A stretch of DNA of 10,588 nucleotides, from the NCBI GenBank assembly GCA_030590525.1, contig JAUUYI010000043.1, positions 1 through 10,588 of the forward strand. Direction: 5' to 3'. Of this stretch, positions 548 to 7,917 are shown piece by piece. Made by a program: the position numbers and the translations under genes. The stretch is from Sedimenticola sp. Its GTDB lineage: Bacteria > Pseudomonadota > Gammaproteobacteria > Chromatiales > Chromatiaceae. The notes below the pieces were generated by a model. It did no database searches, had not been told where the DNA came from, and was given only the letters and a program-made list of their open reading frames with translations. Numbering within the stretch: position 1 is the stretch's first letter; each line of letters opens with the position of its first letter.

Positions 548-863
548 GGGCTCGCGAAATAATAAGTCCCTGAATTTGGGGCATTGAGACGCCCATCTGG
601 CAAGGGTCGCTACCGGCGTTCTGCCTACCGCGACACTTGTGCATTATCCCCTGCAGGTCGCGCGAAAACGCAGGAATATTCATTATCTTTCAAGTTTTCG
701 CAACGTGACCCACAGGGATGTGGGAAATGCCGGTTCCGTCAGGAACATGAACCGGTCGGCCAGGCGGGGCCGTTCTCGCACATCCATGTGCTACACGGCA
801 TTTGAACATCCTGTTCGGCATGGATCGGCGTCCCAAAACAGGGAGTTATTGTTTCGCGAGCCC
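548..863. mobile_element. MITE-A copy 1 (316 bp, TAA target duplication)
   Basis: The element starts GGGCTCGCGAAATAATAA and ends with the inverted counterpart TTATTGTTTCGCGAGCCC; the terminal repeats continue imperfectly for about 40-50 bp. It is flanked by TAA at 545-547 and TAA at 864-866, a 3-bp target duplication. Inside are stems at 662-669/694-701 (GCGAAAAC/GTTTTCGC), 709-714/719-724 (CCCACA/TGTGGG), 730-736/749-755 (CCGGTTC/GAACCGG), 778-783/786-791 (GCACAT/ATGTGC) and 804-808/812-816 (GAACA/TGTTC). No plausible transposase is encoded. A 3-bp T-N-A duplication is known for IS1031-type members of the IS5 family, which is a possible mobiliser, but this is inference. Copies 2 and 3 lie at 5172 and 7551 in the same orientation. 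Confidence 0.85.
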
Positions 864-1007: not shown

Positions 1008-4000
1008 ATGGTTCGATTACCCCCCGGAATGAATAGCTTGATGCATAGAGCAATCTCTCGATGCCGTGTTCCATCTGGAGAACTGCGCAGGCTGATTGCC
1101 ATAGCCTGCCTCGTGTTCTGCGGCATCCCCTCAACCAGCGCCGCTCCTCTGCAGGAAGAGGAGGTACCTGCAGCACTCGTACCCTGGACGGACTGGGTCA
1201 TGTGGGCCCACCCGTCGCTGGAGTGCCCCGTTGCTTTCGATGGGCAACAACGGCGCTGTATATGGCCGAGCCGTCTGAATCTGACGCTGCAGGAACAGGG
1301 CGGCGTTTTCGATCAAGAGGTCCATGTCTACCGGGAGGTGGAGATAACGCTGCCGGGGAGTCTCGATCACTGGCCACAGGAGATCACCGTCGATGGTGAG
1401 CCAGCCGTTGTTCTGAACAAAAACGGCATCCCTGGGATACATCTGGCGACCGGGCGCCACCAGATAACGGGGCGCTTCACCTGGGACCAGTTGCCGGAGT
1501 CACTGCACCTTCCCAAGGGAACCGGCATCGTGAAGCTGACGGTCAATGGAAACCAGCAGCTGCAGCCATCGTTCAAGCAGGGATCATTGTGGTTACGCGG
1601 CCAGGCAACGGCTACCGGCGGGCAGCCGCAGGATACACTTGCAGTGGCACTGTTTCGCAAACTGGATGACGGTCACCCTTTCCGGATGACGACCCACCTG
1701 GAACTGCAGGTATCAGGTAAACGACGTGAAGCGATACTGGGAACACCGCTGCTCGATGGATTCCTGCCACTCGCCATTCGCAGCCGTCTGCCAGCGCGTC
1801 TGGAGGCCGATGGTGGACTGCGGGTGCAGCTGCGGCCGGGACGCTGGGAAGTGGAGGTGGATACGGTACATCCCGGCTACCTGGAGCAGTTCAGCCTGGG
1901 CCAGCAACCGCGTCCCTGGCCAGCCGAGGAGATATTCGCTTTCCGATCCCACCCCGAGATCCGGCTGGTGGAGGTAGTGGACGGTATACAGATCGACCCC
2001 CGTCAGACACGGATACCGGAAGCCTGGCGCAATCTGCCTGCTTACCGGGTAGATGCTGGCCAGGCTTTCCGGTTGAAGGTGATTCGCCGGGGTAATCCGC
2101 AACCAGTGCCGGACGACCTCAGCCTGCAGCGAACACTGTGGCTCGATTTTTCAGGGGAAGGCCTGACCGTACAGGACAGGATTCAAGGCACCATCTCCTC
2201 GGGCTGGCGCCTTTCCGTCGACCCGGTTATCGAACTGGGACGGGCGAACCTCGACGGCCAGCCCCAGTTCATCACCCGCATGGGTGATCGCAACGGGGTG
2301 GAAGTCCGGCGTGGCAAGATTAACCTGGTGGCCGAGAGTCGCATCGAAAAAAACCTGTCGACCCTGCCCGTCACCGGCTGGGGACATGATATGCAAAAGG
2401 TATCCACCAGCCTCAGATTGCCCCCGGGTTGGCGCCTGATAGCCACCTCTGGTGTCGATGTGGAGAACCGATCCTGGTTACGGCAATGGACACTGTATGA
2501 TTTTTTCATCGTGTTCGTCCTTGCCATGGGTGCCGGAAAGCTGTGGGGATGGCGTTGGGCGCTGCCCGTATTGCTGGTGCTGGGAATGACCTGGCATGAG
2601 TCGGGGGCGCCCCAGGGCATCTGGCTCTACCTGATGGTCGTCACGGCATTGAGACGGGTAGTGACCGAAGGGAGAATGGCCCGGGTGATGAAAGGGGCCT
2701 GGCTGGGTGGCCTGATTGGTCTGGTGCTGATCACCGTTCCCTTTGCGGTCGAGCAGGCCAGGGAGGGACTGTATCCGCAGTTGGCGCCACACAGTGCCGC
2801 CTTTGTGGCAACAGACGAGCTCTCTATGAGCGCACCGCAGGACAAGGCCGTTCTCGAGGAAGAGTCTACCTATGGGCGAAAAAAAGAACGCCTGAAATCG
2901 ATGGTGCAGCGTCGGGCCGGTAACTACAGCCATCCCTCTGCTCCCGCTTCCCGAAGAGCGTGGAGTGTCGATCCAGGCGCCCGGATACAGACGGGCCCGG
3001 GGCTGCCTGACTGGGAATGGAACAGGATTCCACTGGGCTGGAGTGGCCCCGTCGACAGAGATCAGGAGATGCACCTGTTTCTGCTCGGCCCCAAGTGGAA
3101 TATGCTGCTCAATTTCCTGCATATCCTGCTGATTGGTCTACTCTTGTGGCGCTTCTTCGACTGGAAGCTGCCCGGGCGACTCTCTCGCACAGCCAATCCG
3201 GCGATCCTGTCGATGGGGCTTATGCTGGCCGGGCTGACGGGTGGGATACCGGAACCGGCCATGGCATCCGACTATCCCCCGAAGGAACTGCTCGAGGAGT
3301 TGGAGCGACGGCTGACCCTCCCACCGGAGTGCCTGCCCCAATGTGCGGACATGGAGCAGATGCAGCTCAATCTGAGAGGCGACGGCTACCGGGCAACGAT
3401 GCAGATCAGTGCCTCAGAGGATGTATCCGTACCGCTGCTGGGGGATATCCGGCAGATCACCCCGCTCCAGGTGCACGTCGACGGCGAGAAGAGCGACCTG
3501 GCCCGGGACGATGCAGGCCGACTATGGGTCAGAATCCCAAAGGGAAGACACACCGTGACTGTCGACGGCCGGTTACCAGGGCAGCGGGAGGTTGCGTTGG
3601 TGTTGCCGCTGACACCACACCGCCTGAAGGTGGTTGGCAAGGAGTGGCGAGTCGAGGGGATCCGTGAAAACGGGGTACCGGATAATCAGCTGCTGCTGAT
3701 CCGGAAACAGACTGCTGACCAATCAGGCCAGAAGTCGGCAGACGCGCTCCAGCCAGGCCTGTTGCCCCCGTTTCTCAGCGTGGAGCGCACATTGCATCTG
3801 GGGCTCGACTGGACCGTGGATACCCGGGTGATTCGGCTGTCGCCCCTGGGCAGCCCGGTAACCCTGCGGGTGCCACTGCTGACCGGCGAATCGGTAGTAA
3901 CCGATGGCGTATCGGTGCTGGAGGGTCGAGCACTGGTCAATCTCGCGCCGGCTGCCCGGGAGTTCATCTGGTCTTCCCGACTGGAACCGGTCGAGCTGAT

Positions 4001-5171
4001 CCGGTTGACGGCCCCCGCAACCAGCCAGTGGGTGGAGAGCTGGCGTATCGATGCAAGCCCGATATGGCATCTGCAGCTTTCCGGACTGGCACCGGTGCAC
4101 AACAGCTCACAGGGGAGATGGATGCCGGCATGGATGCCATGGGCGGGGGAGCAAGTCTCAATCCAGGTGACACGCCCCGAAGGGGTGGACGGCCCGGTGC
4201 TGACGATTACCGACACTGCACTGGAGATCACCCCCGGAACCCGGACCACGGATGGAAAGCTGGATATCCGGTTGCGCGCCAGCCAGGGGGGGCGCTTCAC
4301 AGTTCATATACCGGCAGGAGCCAAACTGCTGCAGGCTCAAATGGATGGAAAGCCACTGCCGGTGCGGTCGAAAGGGGCACAGGTGTCGCTGCCGGTCCAT
4401 CCGGGTAAACAACGCTATAGTTTGAACTGGCGGGTGGGAGAGGGCATCACCGCCCTCTGGAAAACCCCGCAAGTCGATCTGAGCATGGCCAGCGTGAATG
4501 CAAAAACCCGGGTGAACATGGGCCAGGACCGCTGGATCCTTTTTACCACGGGCCCAAGACTGGGCCCCGCCGTGCTGTTCTGGGGGGACCTGCTGATCGT
4601 GCTCGGGGTGGCCATCGTACTGGGTCGTCTGAAAGAGTGGACACCGTTGGGTGTCGGCAGCTGGTTTCTGCTCGGGATCGGGCTGTCCCAGGTGGACCTG
4701 GCCGCCACACTGTTGGTCGTGGTGACACTGCTGGCATTTGGTTACCGGAGGCGACGCTACCCAGATGCTATTCAGGGATTCAACTGGGTGCAGGGTGGGC
4801 TGGTGCTGCTGGTGCTGACGTCCGGATCGGTGCTGCTCTGGTCGATTCAGCAGGGCCTGCTGGGAGAGCCCAGGATGCAGGTGGTGGGGAACGGGTCATG
4901 GGCCTATCAGTTGAACTGGTACCAGGACCGGGCCAAAGAGGTGCTGCCGCAAAGCCAGGTCTACTCGATTCCGATCGCGGTTTATCGCTGGTTGATGCTG
5001 GCCTGGGCCCTGTGGCTCTCCTTCTCCGTGCTGAAGTGGAGCAAGTGGATATGGGCTGCGTTCAGCCACGGGGGGCGCTGGCAGAAAATCGATTTTCAAC
5101 TGCCAAAGGGGGGATTAGGGCCCCGGAAAAGGGTTGCAGCAAACAGGAAAGGCGGTAACCACCCATCCTAA
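1008..5171 (+). CDS. Large exported/membrane-anchored protein of unknown function with two homologous halves
   Basis: 1387 residues; I do not recognise a named family. A hydrophobic segment at about residues 29-42 followed by STSAAP looks like a signal peptide. The first half has a beta-rich region (about 60-480) and then membrane segments near 498-528, 537-550, 565-580 and 699-717. A second signal-like hydrophobic stretch ending PAMAS (732-754) begins the second half, which again is beta-rich (about 765-1180) and ends in membrane segments near 1190-1226, 1232-1245, 1260-1279 and 1324-1345. Motifs recur with an offset near 700: LECP (71) and PECLPQC (773), VDGE (128 and 824), GRHQITGR (149) and GRHTVTVDGR (846), WRLIATSG (475) and WILFTTG (1176). 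Mixed periplasmic sandwich and inner-membrane domains suggest an envelope role. Start at 1008 has AGGA 10 nt upstream; ATGs at 1029 and 1041 are alternatives. The tail is basic. Confidence 0.85.
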   Translation: MVRLPPGMNSLMHRAISRCRVPSGELRRLIAIACLVFCGIPSTSAAPLQEEEVPAALVPWTDWVMWAHPSLECPVAFDGQQRRCIWPSRLNLTLQEQGGVFDQEVHVYREVEITLPGSLDHWPQEITVDGEPAVVLNKNGIPGIHLATGRHQITGRFTWDQLPESLHLPKGTGIVKLTVNGNQQLQPSFKQGSLWLRGQATATGGQPQDTLAVALFRKLDDGHPFRMTTHLELQVSGKRREAILGTPLLDGFLPLAIRSRLPARLEADGGLRVQLRPGRWEVEVDTVHPGYLEQFSLGQQPRPWPAEEIFAFRSHPEIRLVEVVDGIQIDPRQTRIPEAWRNLPAYRVDAGQAFRLKVIRRGNPQPVPDDLSLQRTLWLDFSGEGLTVQDRIQGTISSGWRLSVDPVIELGRANLDGQPQFITRMGDRNGVEVRRGKINLVAESRIEKNLSTLPVTGWGHDMQKVSTSLRLPPGWRLIATSGVDVENRSWLRQWTLYDFFIVFVLAMGAGKLWGWRWALPVLLVLGMTWHESGAPQGIWLYLMVVTALRRVVTEGRMARVMKGAWLGGLIGLVLITVPFAVEQAREGLYPQLAPHSAAFVATDELSMSAPQDKAVLEEESTYGRKKERLKSMVQRRAGNYSHPSAPASRRAWSVDPGARIQTGPGLPDWEWNRIPLGWSGPVDRDQEMHLFLLGPKWNMLLNFLHILLIGLLLWRFFDWKLPGRLSRTANPAILSMGLMLAGLTGGIPEPAMASDYPPKELLEELERRLTLPPECLPQCADMEQMQLNLRGDGYRATMQISASEDVSVPLLGDIRQITPLQVHVDGEKSDLARDDAGRLWVRIPKGRHTVTVDGRLPGQREVALVLPLTPHRLKVVGKEWRVEGIRENGVPDNQLLLIRKQTADQSGQKSADALQPGLLPPFLSVERTLHLGLDWTVDTRVIRLSPLGSPVTLRVPLLTGESVVTDGVSVLEGRALVNLAPAAREFIWSSRLEPVELIRLTAPATSQWVESWRIDASPIWHLQLSGLAPVHNSSQGRWMPAWMPWAGEQVSIQVTRPEGVDGPVLTITDTALEITPGTRTTDGKLDIRLRASQGGRFTVHIPAGAKLLQAQMDGKPLPVRSKGAQVSLPVHPGKQRYSLNWRVGEGITALWKTPQVDLSMASVNAKTRVNMGQDRWILFTTGPRLGPAVLFWGDLLIVLGVAIVLGRLKEWTPLGVGSWFLLGIGLSQVDLAATLLVVVTLLAFGYRRRRYPDAIQGFNWVQGGLVLLVLTSGSVLLWSIQQGLLGEPRMQVVGNGSWAYQLNWYQDRAKEVLPQSQVYSIPIAVYRWLMLAWALWLSFSVLKWSKWIWAAFSHGGRWQKIDFQLPKGGLGPRKRVAANRKGGNHPS

Positions 5172-5436
5172 GGGCTCGCGCCAAAATAAGTTTACATTTA
5201 CGGGCGTCGAGGCGCCCGGCTGACAAGGCGTAACAACGCAGGAATATTCTTTATATTTCCAGTTGTTACAACGTGACCCACAGGGATGTGGGAAATGCCG
5301 GTTCCGTCAGGAACATGAACCGGCCCGTCAGGCGGGGGCCGTTCTCGCACATCCCTGTGCTACACGGCATTTGAACATCCTGCTGTTCTGCATGAATCGG
5401 CGTTTGTAAATGTGAAATTATTTTTGAAGCGAGCCC
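5172..5436. mobile_element. MITE-A copy 2 (265 bp, TAA target duplication at a stop codon)
   Basis: Starts GGGCTCGCGCCAAAATAA and ends TTATTTTTGAAGCGAGCCC, with imperfect inverted ends of about 36 bp that differ from copies 1 and 3 and so mark a sub-family. Flanks are TAA at 5169-5171 and TAA at 5437-5439. The central part is nearly identical to copy 1 (CCCACAGGGATGTGGG and the CCGGTTC/GAACCGG hairpin). The upstream stem is GTAACAAC (5230-5237) with GTTGTTAC (5262-5269), different in sequence from copy 1 but still fully paired. It lacks the CGCGAC/GTCGCG stem of the other copies. It fills the gap between two convergent genes. Confidence 0.85.
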
Positions 5437-6249: not shown

Positions 6250-6298
6250 TTGTCTACCCTCATAATTTTAAGATATCTGCCCGACGCGACCCCCAAGA

Positions 6299-6661
6299 GG
6301 GTAACTTCTCAATAACCCGGGGCAAACGGGTAGGGTGGATCAAGGAGCGTAGCGACGGATCCACCAACGCGACCTAGGAGCCTGTCCGAGAATAGAGAAC
6401 CTACTGCGGGAAAACCATTTTGGCCAGATTTCCCGATTAAATTCGTTAAATATGCCCAATATTCGCCTCATTTAATCGAAAAATCTGACTCAAAATGGCT
6501 TCCCCTCGCTACGACCGCCATGGATGGCGGAAGTGCCGGTTTTGCAGGAGCAACAAACCGGTCGGCTTCTATTCTCGGACAGGCTCCTAGCCTGGTGTAT
6601 CCGCTCCGCTTGATACACCCTACATTTCAGATTGTTGCCTGAACTTATTGAGAAGTTACCC
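6299..6661. mobile_element. MITE C, interrupted by MITE B
   Basis: GGGTAACTTCTCAATAA (6299-6315) and TTATTGAGAAGTTACCC (6645-6661) are perfect 17-bp inverted ends. Next inside lie GTAGGGTGGATCAAG... (6331 on) and its diverged inverted partner ending TTGATACACCCTAC (6609-6622), a palindromic core like the GTAGGGTGGAT repeats of gammaproteobacteria. Removing element B and one CTAG leaves a compact palindrome of about 150 bp. No clear target duplication is visible outside the ends. No ORF of substance is inside, so it must be mobilised in trans if it moves at all. Confidence 0.7.
6378..6586. mobile_element. MITE B (209 bp, CTAG target duplication) nested in MITE C
   Basis: The ends GAGCCTGTCCGAGAATAGA (6378-6396) and TCTATTCTCGGACAGGCTC (6568-6586) are perfect inverted repeats, flanked by CTAG at 6374-6377 and 6587-6590. 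A CTAG duplication and GAG-type ends are known features of IS5-family elements, so a related transposase elsewhere in the genome is the likely mobiliser (inference). Inside is a long imperfect hairpin (about 6415-6510; arms around CCCGATTAAAT and ATTTAATCGAA), then CCGCCAT/ATGGCGG (6515-6530) and CCGGTTT/AAACCGG (6536-6561). The last two resemble the central hairpins of MITE-A although the ends are unrelated. Confidence 0.85.
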
Positions 6662-7550: not shown

Positions 7551-7917
7551 GGGCTCGCGAAATAATTAAGTCCCTGAATTCAGGGCGCCGAGGCGCCCGT
7601 CCGGCAAGGGGTCGCTCCCGGCATCTGCCGTACATGAATGTACCAATGCCGCGCGTACAGGATTGTACAGGAGCGGACTGCCTCCCGCGACACCTGTACA
7701 TCCCTGCACGTCGCGCGGAAACGCAGAAATATTCATTATCTTCCCGCTTTCCGCAACGTGACCCACAGGGATGTAGGAAATGCCCGTTCCGTCAGGAACA
7801 TGAACCGGCCAGCCAGACGGGGGCCATTCTCGCACATCCATGTGCTACACGGCATTTGAACATCCTGTTCGGCATGGACCGGCGTCCCAAAATAGGGAGT
7901 TATTGTTTCGCGAACCC
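7551..7917. mobile_element. MITE-A copy 3 (367 bp, TTA target duplication)
   Basis: Starts GGGCTCGCGAAATAATTAA and ends TTATTGTTTCGCGAACCC, flanked by TTA at 7548-7550 and 7918-7920. It is the longest copy. Next to the left end GGGCGCC/GGCGCCC forms a perfect hairpin. About 50 bp of extra sequence near 7620-7680 holds GTACAT/ATGTAC and GTACAGGATTGTAC, a 5-bp stem with a GGAT loop. The conserved upstream stem is GCGGAAA (7715-7721) with TTTCCGC (7748-7754). Two internal ORFs of about 75-100 codons overlap one another and recur in copy 1 only as by-products of repeat conservation. It ends 21 bp from the stop codon of the rhodanese gene. Confidence 0.85.

Follow-up and report, generated by a model that had tools for sequence, protein, structure and literature searches.

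A double hairpin of about 51 nt with GGA loops as a probable independent mobile unit in MITEs, genes, and itself

The window, a 10,588-nt stretch of Sedimenticola sp. DNA, contains copies of two elements, MITE-A and MITE B, which share a similar pair of hairpins. How did two otherwise different elements come to carry the same structured module? The elements are located as follows.

548..863, plus strand: MITE-A copy 1, with inverted repeat I1 and TAA duplications at 545-547 and 864-866
5172..5436, plus strand: MITE-A copy 2, with inverted repeat I3 and TAA duplications
7551..7917, plus strand: MITE-A copy 3, with direct repeats D1, D2, and D6 and TTA duplications
6374..6590, plus strand: MITE B including its CTAG duplications, with the 23-bp perfect inverted repeat I4 and 66 matching pieces in its own genome

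In agreement with the original prediction of a structured module common to unrelated elements, MITE-A and MITE B are different elements with different ends and target duplications (TAA, TAA, and TTA vs CTAG, read by eye from the sequence). Beside the loci L047 and L053, the uninterrupted MITE B target was found with a single CTAG, which supports the 4-bp duplication of this element. At positions 6299-6661 of the window, MITE B interrupts a third repeat, which has a 17-bp perfect inverted repeat (GGGTAACTTCTCAATAA). An open frame of 1387 residues (1008-5171) lies between two of the MITE-A copies.

Positions 707-760 and 6513-6566 indeed aligned without gaps at the claimed identity of about 69% (37 of 54 positions), whereas, when the first copy was compared without gaps to 100 dinucleotide-shuffled windows, the best 54-nt identity averaged 27.7 and never exceeded 31. 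The sharing of the module was thus upheld, but its proposed length of 54 bp was not, the natural unit being 51 nt long (707-757 and 6513-6563). Folding of the plus strand revealed two GGA-loop hairpins in both copies (z of -1.78 and -2.55), and the alignment showed the compensatory stem differences that had been described (C5-G16 vs G5-C16 and A6-U15 vs C6-G15). The unit comprises GACC, a 6-bp hairpin whose loop is NGGA, GGAARTGC, and hairpin 2, which has an AGGA-type loop. The sequence of hairpin 2 varies freely, yet it stays complementary. The units listed below were scored with the covariance model R1, which was built from 7 sequences; a second model, R2, comprised 56 matches in 45 distinct rows.

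6513..6563, plus strand: 51-nt double-hairpin unit in MITE B; 74.4 bits with R1, a model built partly from this same copy; absent from otherwise like MITE B copies
6515..6530, plus strand: hairpin 1 of the MITE B unit, CCGCCA[TGGA]TGGCGG, from the fold
6535..6562, plus strand: hairpin 2 of the MITE B unit, with an AGGA loop and a 2-nt bulge on the 3' side, from fold and covariation
707..757, plus strand: 51-nt unit in MITE-A copy 1; 71 bits with R1; missing from empty MITE-A copies
5275..5325, plus strand: 51-nt unit in MITE-A copy 2; 73.3 bits with R1
7760..7810, plus strand: 51-nt unit in MITE-A copy 3; 67.3 bits with R1
769..819, minus strand: another 51-nt insert in MITE-A copy 1, in reversed orientation (length counted by eye), with minus-strand GGA-loop hairpins at 804-816 and 778-791; below the reach of the models

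Covariation was analyzed in 98 distinct rows from named loci. In this alignment, which was fitted to the model and thereby favors the structure, the score was 0.402, compared to 0.139 for shuffled and at most 0.112 for slid rows. Furthermore, 92.9% of the cells paired, and double-sided changes were present at 12 of the 17 pairs; the pattern used for the named loci had prescribed most of hairpin 1 and left hairpin 2 free. An earlier row set gave a score of 0.416 vs 0.158 for shuffled rows, and four of five measures were above the shuffles; further pair types in this set were no higher than in the shuffles (185/500). GGA was present in loop 2 in 93/98 rows from named loci and in 42/44 rows of another set. 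Loop 1 contained it in 41/45 rows, and in 98/98 rows of the set whose search pattern had fixed this loop. Most matches were 49 to 53 nt long. Among the 87 insertions described below, nearly all units started with GACC, and the last bases were mostly GCC. Terminal inverted repeats of the MITE type are absent from the unit, the ends of which match over at most 4 bp (GACC/GGYC) that are the feet of the hairpins. The inverted hairpin order typical of REPINs is also absent: both GGA loops are on one strand.

The genome of the window (G000; 70% complete, 389 contigs) yielded 48 pieces matching MITE-A and 66 matching MITE B. At one site, 14 MITE-A contexts were filled with the unit and 4 were empty; for MITE B, 4 contexts were filled and 6 were empty, again at one site. 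These counts are approximate, because contexts at contig or locus ends may count twice and some variant sites were missed. The second, reversed 51-nt insert with its two GGA hairpins was present in 7 and absent from 11 MITE-A contexts. Empty MITE B reads CTCGCTACGGCTTC, while the filled form has 51 extra nt between CTCGCTAC and GGCTTC, with an ambiguity of 1-2 nt. The presence or absence of the unit at one site in MITE-A and in MITE B indicates that it entered each MITE separately. The empty forms of both elements rule out a single common ancestor, and MITE B and MITE-A are not diverged versions of one element. The occurrence of both MITEs with similar units in the same genome would also be in line with common descent or MITE-MITE recombination of a module that moves only with them. 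This is highly improbable, since both MITEs have empty forms, the unit is inserted in genes, and stand-alone copies outside MITEs in many genera contradict it.

Two of the genes with an inserted unit are conserved. In Methylomonas sp. LW13 (L271), R2 matched a unit in mfd (3536-3586). TAMDGGSA... is present at this place in six Mfd proteins, which are 1164-1165 residues long, and the five nearest proteins without the insert have 1147-1150 residues. By its peptide pattern, the insert was detected in 11 of the 120 proteins listed, two of them with a tandem double of 17-residue period; in P0147 and P0177, the insert site holds fewer extra residues, of a different sequence. In Endozoicomonas (L296), the unit is located in the gene for phosphomannomutase (2440-2490). 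The comparison covered 118 of 121 phosphomannomutases, those of at least 454 residues: 17 extra residues were present in three (the query and two others) and absent from 115, one of which (P0067) has an unrelated insertion nearby. The in-frame 17-residue insertions are limited to clades, the one in Mfd to a Methylomonas clade and the one in phosphomannomutase to an Endozoicomonas clade. By eye, units were also seen in an apparent integrase gene of the window's genome (L089) and in an apparent IS66-type transposase gene of another genome (G053, L104).

A covariance-model search of bacterial genomes, as suggested in the original prediction, yielded matches far above chance, and the question whether the module also occurs outside MITEs was answered by stand-alone copies in many genera and by copies in genes. 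R1 gave 41 matches up to E 1 in the window's genome and matches in 25 of 92 neighborhood genomes, this genome included. With R2, for which at most 15-16 candidates per genome were scored, units were detected in 62/369 genomes of the class and 26/398 genomes of the phylum, counts that include the genome of the window; the five carriers of the phylum set outside the class all belong to one family. The genome G304 has at least 150 copies. An exact pattern was found in at least 120 stretches of named genomes, and 80 of them (L250-L329) were used. Among these 80 matches listed were Shewanella, Vreelandella/Halomonas, Microbulbifer, Marinobacter, Thalassolituus, Methylomonas, Bowmanella, Endozoicomonas, and Sedimenticola, and we take those with titles naming more than Proteobacteria to be gammaproteobacterial. 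Seen by eye, units adjoin an apparent tRNA gene end in L101 and L103, in tandem in the latter.

Target preference was analyzed in 87 non-redundant insertions. To obtain this set, units with similar flanks were removed from 128, leaving 91, and tandem neighbors were then dropped, leaving 87; units outside 47-53 nt, units less than 60 nt from a locus end, and the loci of alignment A4 before L085 were left out. The base preceding the unit was a pyrimidine in 84/87 insertions (background, 51%). TCY directly preceded the unit in 33 (38%; background, 3.2%) and did not in the other 54, and GGA just downstream on the unit's strand was found in 0/87. When the flanks were joined, a perfect stem of at least 6 bp spanned the junction in 16/87 cases, whereas 200 re-pairings gave 1.3 such cases on average and never more than 4; units thus lie in hairpin loops more often than expected by chance. 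Among 24 junction stems of at least 5 bp, the loop showed TCC or TCT on the unit strand in 15 (with GGA/AGA as well in one of them) and neither in 9; with 4 bp allowed, GGA was on the unit's own strand in 2 of 38 loops (L301 and L275). These counts suggest that GGA hairpins, read on their other strand, are a favored target, as are other palindromes. Other palindromic targets are exemplified by ATCCCCGC/GCGGGGAT (L094) and ATTCCCGC/GCGGGAAT (L112). The insertion site in MITE B is not obviously a loop.

Units were also found inside units. A second 51-nt unit, in reversed orientation, interrupts a unit in L006, and a like nesting is present in another genome (L102). Tandem copies with a 51-bp period occur in L023/L030. 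Comparison by eye of the empty and filled sites in MITE-A, MITE B, L006, and L102 revealed no target duplication; the forms differ by 51 nt and at most one base change before the unit. In the nested cases of L006 and L102, T was observed by eye just before the inserted unit and C in the intact copy. The filled MITE-A copies shown have T before the unit, and C is present in three of four empty contexts; for this count, the script sought filled copies with T only.

The G304 units (L170-L249) are part of larger arrays (CGACAGGACGCCGTGAATACGTCCATGTAGGC...), which are conserved and contain many hairpins with GGA/TCC loops. NGGA/TCCN loops were present in 7/23 other hairpins near units vs 10/194 farther away in the named loci, in 10/16 vs 2/45 in G304, and in 1/6 vs 2/19 in a third set. 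A second class of GGA double hairpins, 47-48 nt in length, was observed in more than one genome (L236:1093-1172, L189:3385-3425, and two rows of alignment A6). Its members occupy hairpin-2 loops directly ahead of AGGA, and their polarity is opposite to that of the 51-nt unit.

In its behavior, the unit is a mobile sequence independent of the MITEs, with copies placed in MITEs, in genes, in other palindromes, and within further units. At given sites in MITE-A, MITE B, two conserved genes, and its own copies, the whole unit is either there or missing, and these filled/empty differences probably represent insertions rather than losses. We consider it likely that the module is a selfish double hairpin, a non-autonomous mobile element about 51 nt in length. 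Points against this reading are that none of the enzyme families searched marks the carriers, that 16 and 33 of the 87 insertions, respectively, have a junction stem of at least 6 bp and a preceding TCY, that unit length varies, and that the 47-48-nt class has the other polarity. The earlier ideas of a captured RNA or a signal owned by the MITEs were not supported.

Regarding the mechanism, one strand of the unit would fold into both GGA hairpins, and an enzyme acting in trans would recognize the looped single strand and join the unit 3' of a short target. The GGA loops themselves would be good targets (TCY on the other strand), which would lead to nested units and arrays. Among described mechanisms, movement of the IS200/IS605 type, in which the enzyme acts on a looped single strand, comes closest. 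With regard to a passenger of this type, a pyrimidine precedes the unit in 84/87 insertions, but TCY in 33/87, and Y1 was missing in 8/40 carriers, in which the units could be relics and which include draft assemblies. A single-strand type of transposition is our tentative proposal.

Alternatively, the unit could belong to the REPIN/REP type and depend on a RAYT (Y1) transposase for its movement, since it is tiny, palindromic, mostly located outside genes, and clustered, and shows compensatory stem changes. However, its hairpins are in direct and not in inverted order, and Y1 was missing in 8/40 carriers. One of the eight, G007, is 99% complete in about 10 contigs and has 10 unit matches. No Y1 was found in the window's own genome, which is 70% complete. 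Moreover, of 10 Y1 genes examined across seven carrier genomes, one had a unit about 2 kb away and none had one closer. Taking these data together, a RAYT-driven element is quite unlikely.

As carrier markers, Y1/RAYT, reverse transcriptase, IS110, and CsrA were rejected, because none separates 40 carriers from 40 non-carriers. Y1 transposase was found in 32 carriers vs 31 non-carriers, reverse transcriptase in 24 vs 22, IS110 in 22 vs 19, and CsrA in 38 vs 39; completeness was at least 90% in both sets, 25/40 non-carriers were from the window's own family, and the counts ignore kinship. In the carriers G100, G175, G290, and G344, no Y1, reverse transcriptase, or IS110 was found.

The GGA loops relate the unit to the RNA-binding protein CsrA. 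Paired GGA-loop hairpins are the CsrA motif, and on this basis TwoAYGGAY RNA was proposed to bind CsrA (PMC4333381). The unit has this feature of paired hairpins with GGA loops, which makes CsrA binding plausible as judged from its sequence. Rfam gave no match in the window up to E 5, and the 51-nt unit had no match to TwoAYGGAY (RF01731). The suggested lead to TwoAYGGAY and CsrB was nevertheless apt: TwoAYGGAY scored above the gathering score in 2/37 unit-bearing loci scanned. In L252, it covers positions 541-671 and adjoins a unit at 688-738; in L269, it covers 6263-6401, about 2.5 kb from the unit. From these two loci, the TwoAYGGAY family may partly consist of such repeats.

Could the unit then be a functional RNA module, a paired CsrA/RsmA site of the kind found in CsrB/RsmZ or TwoAYGGAY, which mobile elements carry because it regulates transcripts or titrates CsrA? 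In line with this, it has the binding motif, GGA was kept in 93 of 98 second loops, TwoAYGGAY matched in two loci, and nearly all carriers (38/40) have CsrA. However, CsrA was equally common in non-carriers (39/40), and the CsrA search gave no match in the carriers G149 and G179, both drafts. Orientation to same-direction genes was even, with 34 units along and 40 against them (11/16, 19/17, and 4/7 in three sets; simple ORF caller, at least 150 aa). On the GGA strand, G.T and A.C cells were nearly balanced (46 and 33 in one pair of figures, 21 and 19 in the other), and thus there was no clear RNA-strand signature. Furthermore, GGA (TCY on the other strand) is the favored target, which can account for the spread of the unit without regulation. 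We therefore regard the RNA-module explanation as unlikely; an effect on the host via CsrA binding is possible, but it is not needed to explain the unit. In gaps between convergent vs divergent genes, 18 vs 6 units were counted in the named set (background, 44 and 41), 25 vs 20 in G304 (background, 22 and 23), and 3 vs 1 in the third set (background, 5 and 5); the excess in convergent gaps is thus seen in the named set and is slight in G304.

Beyond the selfish double hairpin, we suggest, with reserve, that the unit may represent an undescribed minimal class of mobile DNA. The GGA loop would be both the mark for the enzyme and the preferred landing site, so that units seed units; the enzyme would be outside the Y1, IS110, and reverse-transcriptase families; and the unit would in addition offer CsrA a paired site and supply proteins with 17-residue peptides. 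Searches of open-licence PMC papers by sequence strings and topic terms, judged on titles and listings, gave no description of the unit. If our reading is right, many gammaproteobacterial hairpin repeats for which we found no name would be one mobile DNA family, among the smallest known, with a testable target preference, clade-dated insertions, and in-frame peptides added to conserved proteins. Some predicted CsrA-binding RNAs may then be selfish repeats, or selfish repeats may supply CsrA sites, and the mobilizing enzyme would become a direct, searchable question.

Several known systems resemble the unit in part. Rickettsia palindromic elements are described in PMC10969869 as small palindromic mobile sequences in-frame in unrelated protein genes. 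The unit is likewise in-frame in coding genes (Mfd and phosphomannomutase). By description, the Rickettsia elements are set apart by their length of about 150 bp and their host, whereas the unit has 51 nt, two separate GGA hairpins, gammaproteobacterial hosts, and a target preference. Mitochondrial hairpin elements of Allomyces and sponges are small and scattered, also in coding sequences, and those of Allomyces lack flanking duplications according to PMC2800124. Compared by description, these double-hairpin elements are like the unit in being small scattered hairpins and differ in being mitochondrial. To our knowledge, neither a GGA loop nor a TCY target is known for them. REPINs, according to PMC3116915, are short palindromic mobile units with clusters and compensatory changes. 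They are inverted REP pairs tied to RAYT, whereas the unit consists of hairpins in direct order without a tie to Y1. BOX elements of pneumococcus and the small dispersed repeats of cyanobacteria are modular or very small hairpin repeats; they have other hosts, and their likeness to the unit is one of description. Finally, TwoAYGGAY RNA (RF01731) and other CsrA-binding RNAs share with the unit, which itself has no Rfam match, the arrangement of two GGA-loop hairpins.
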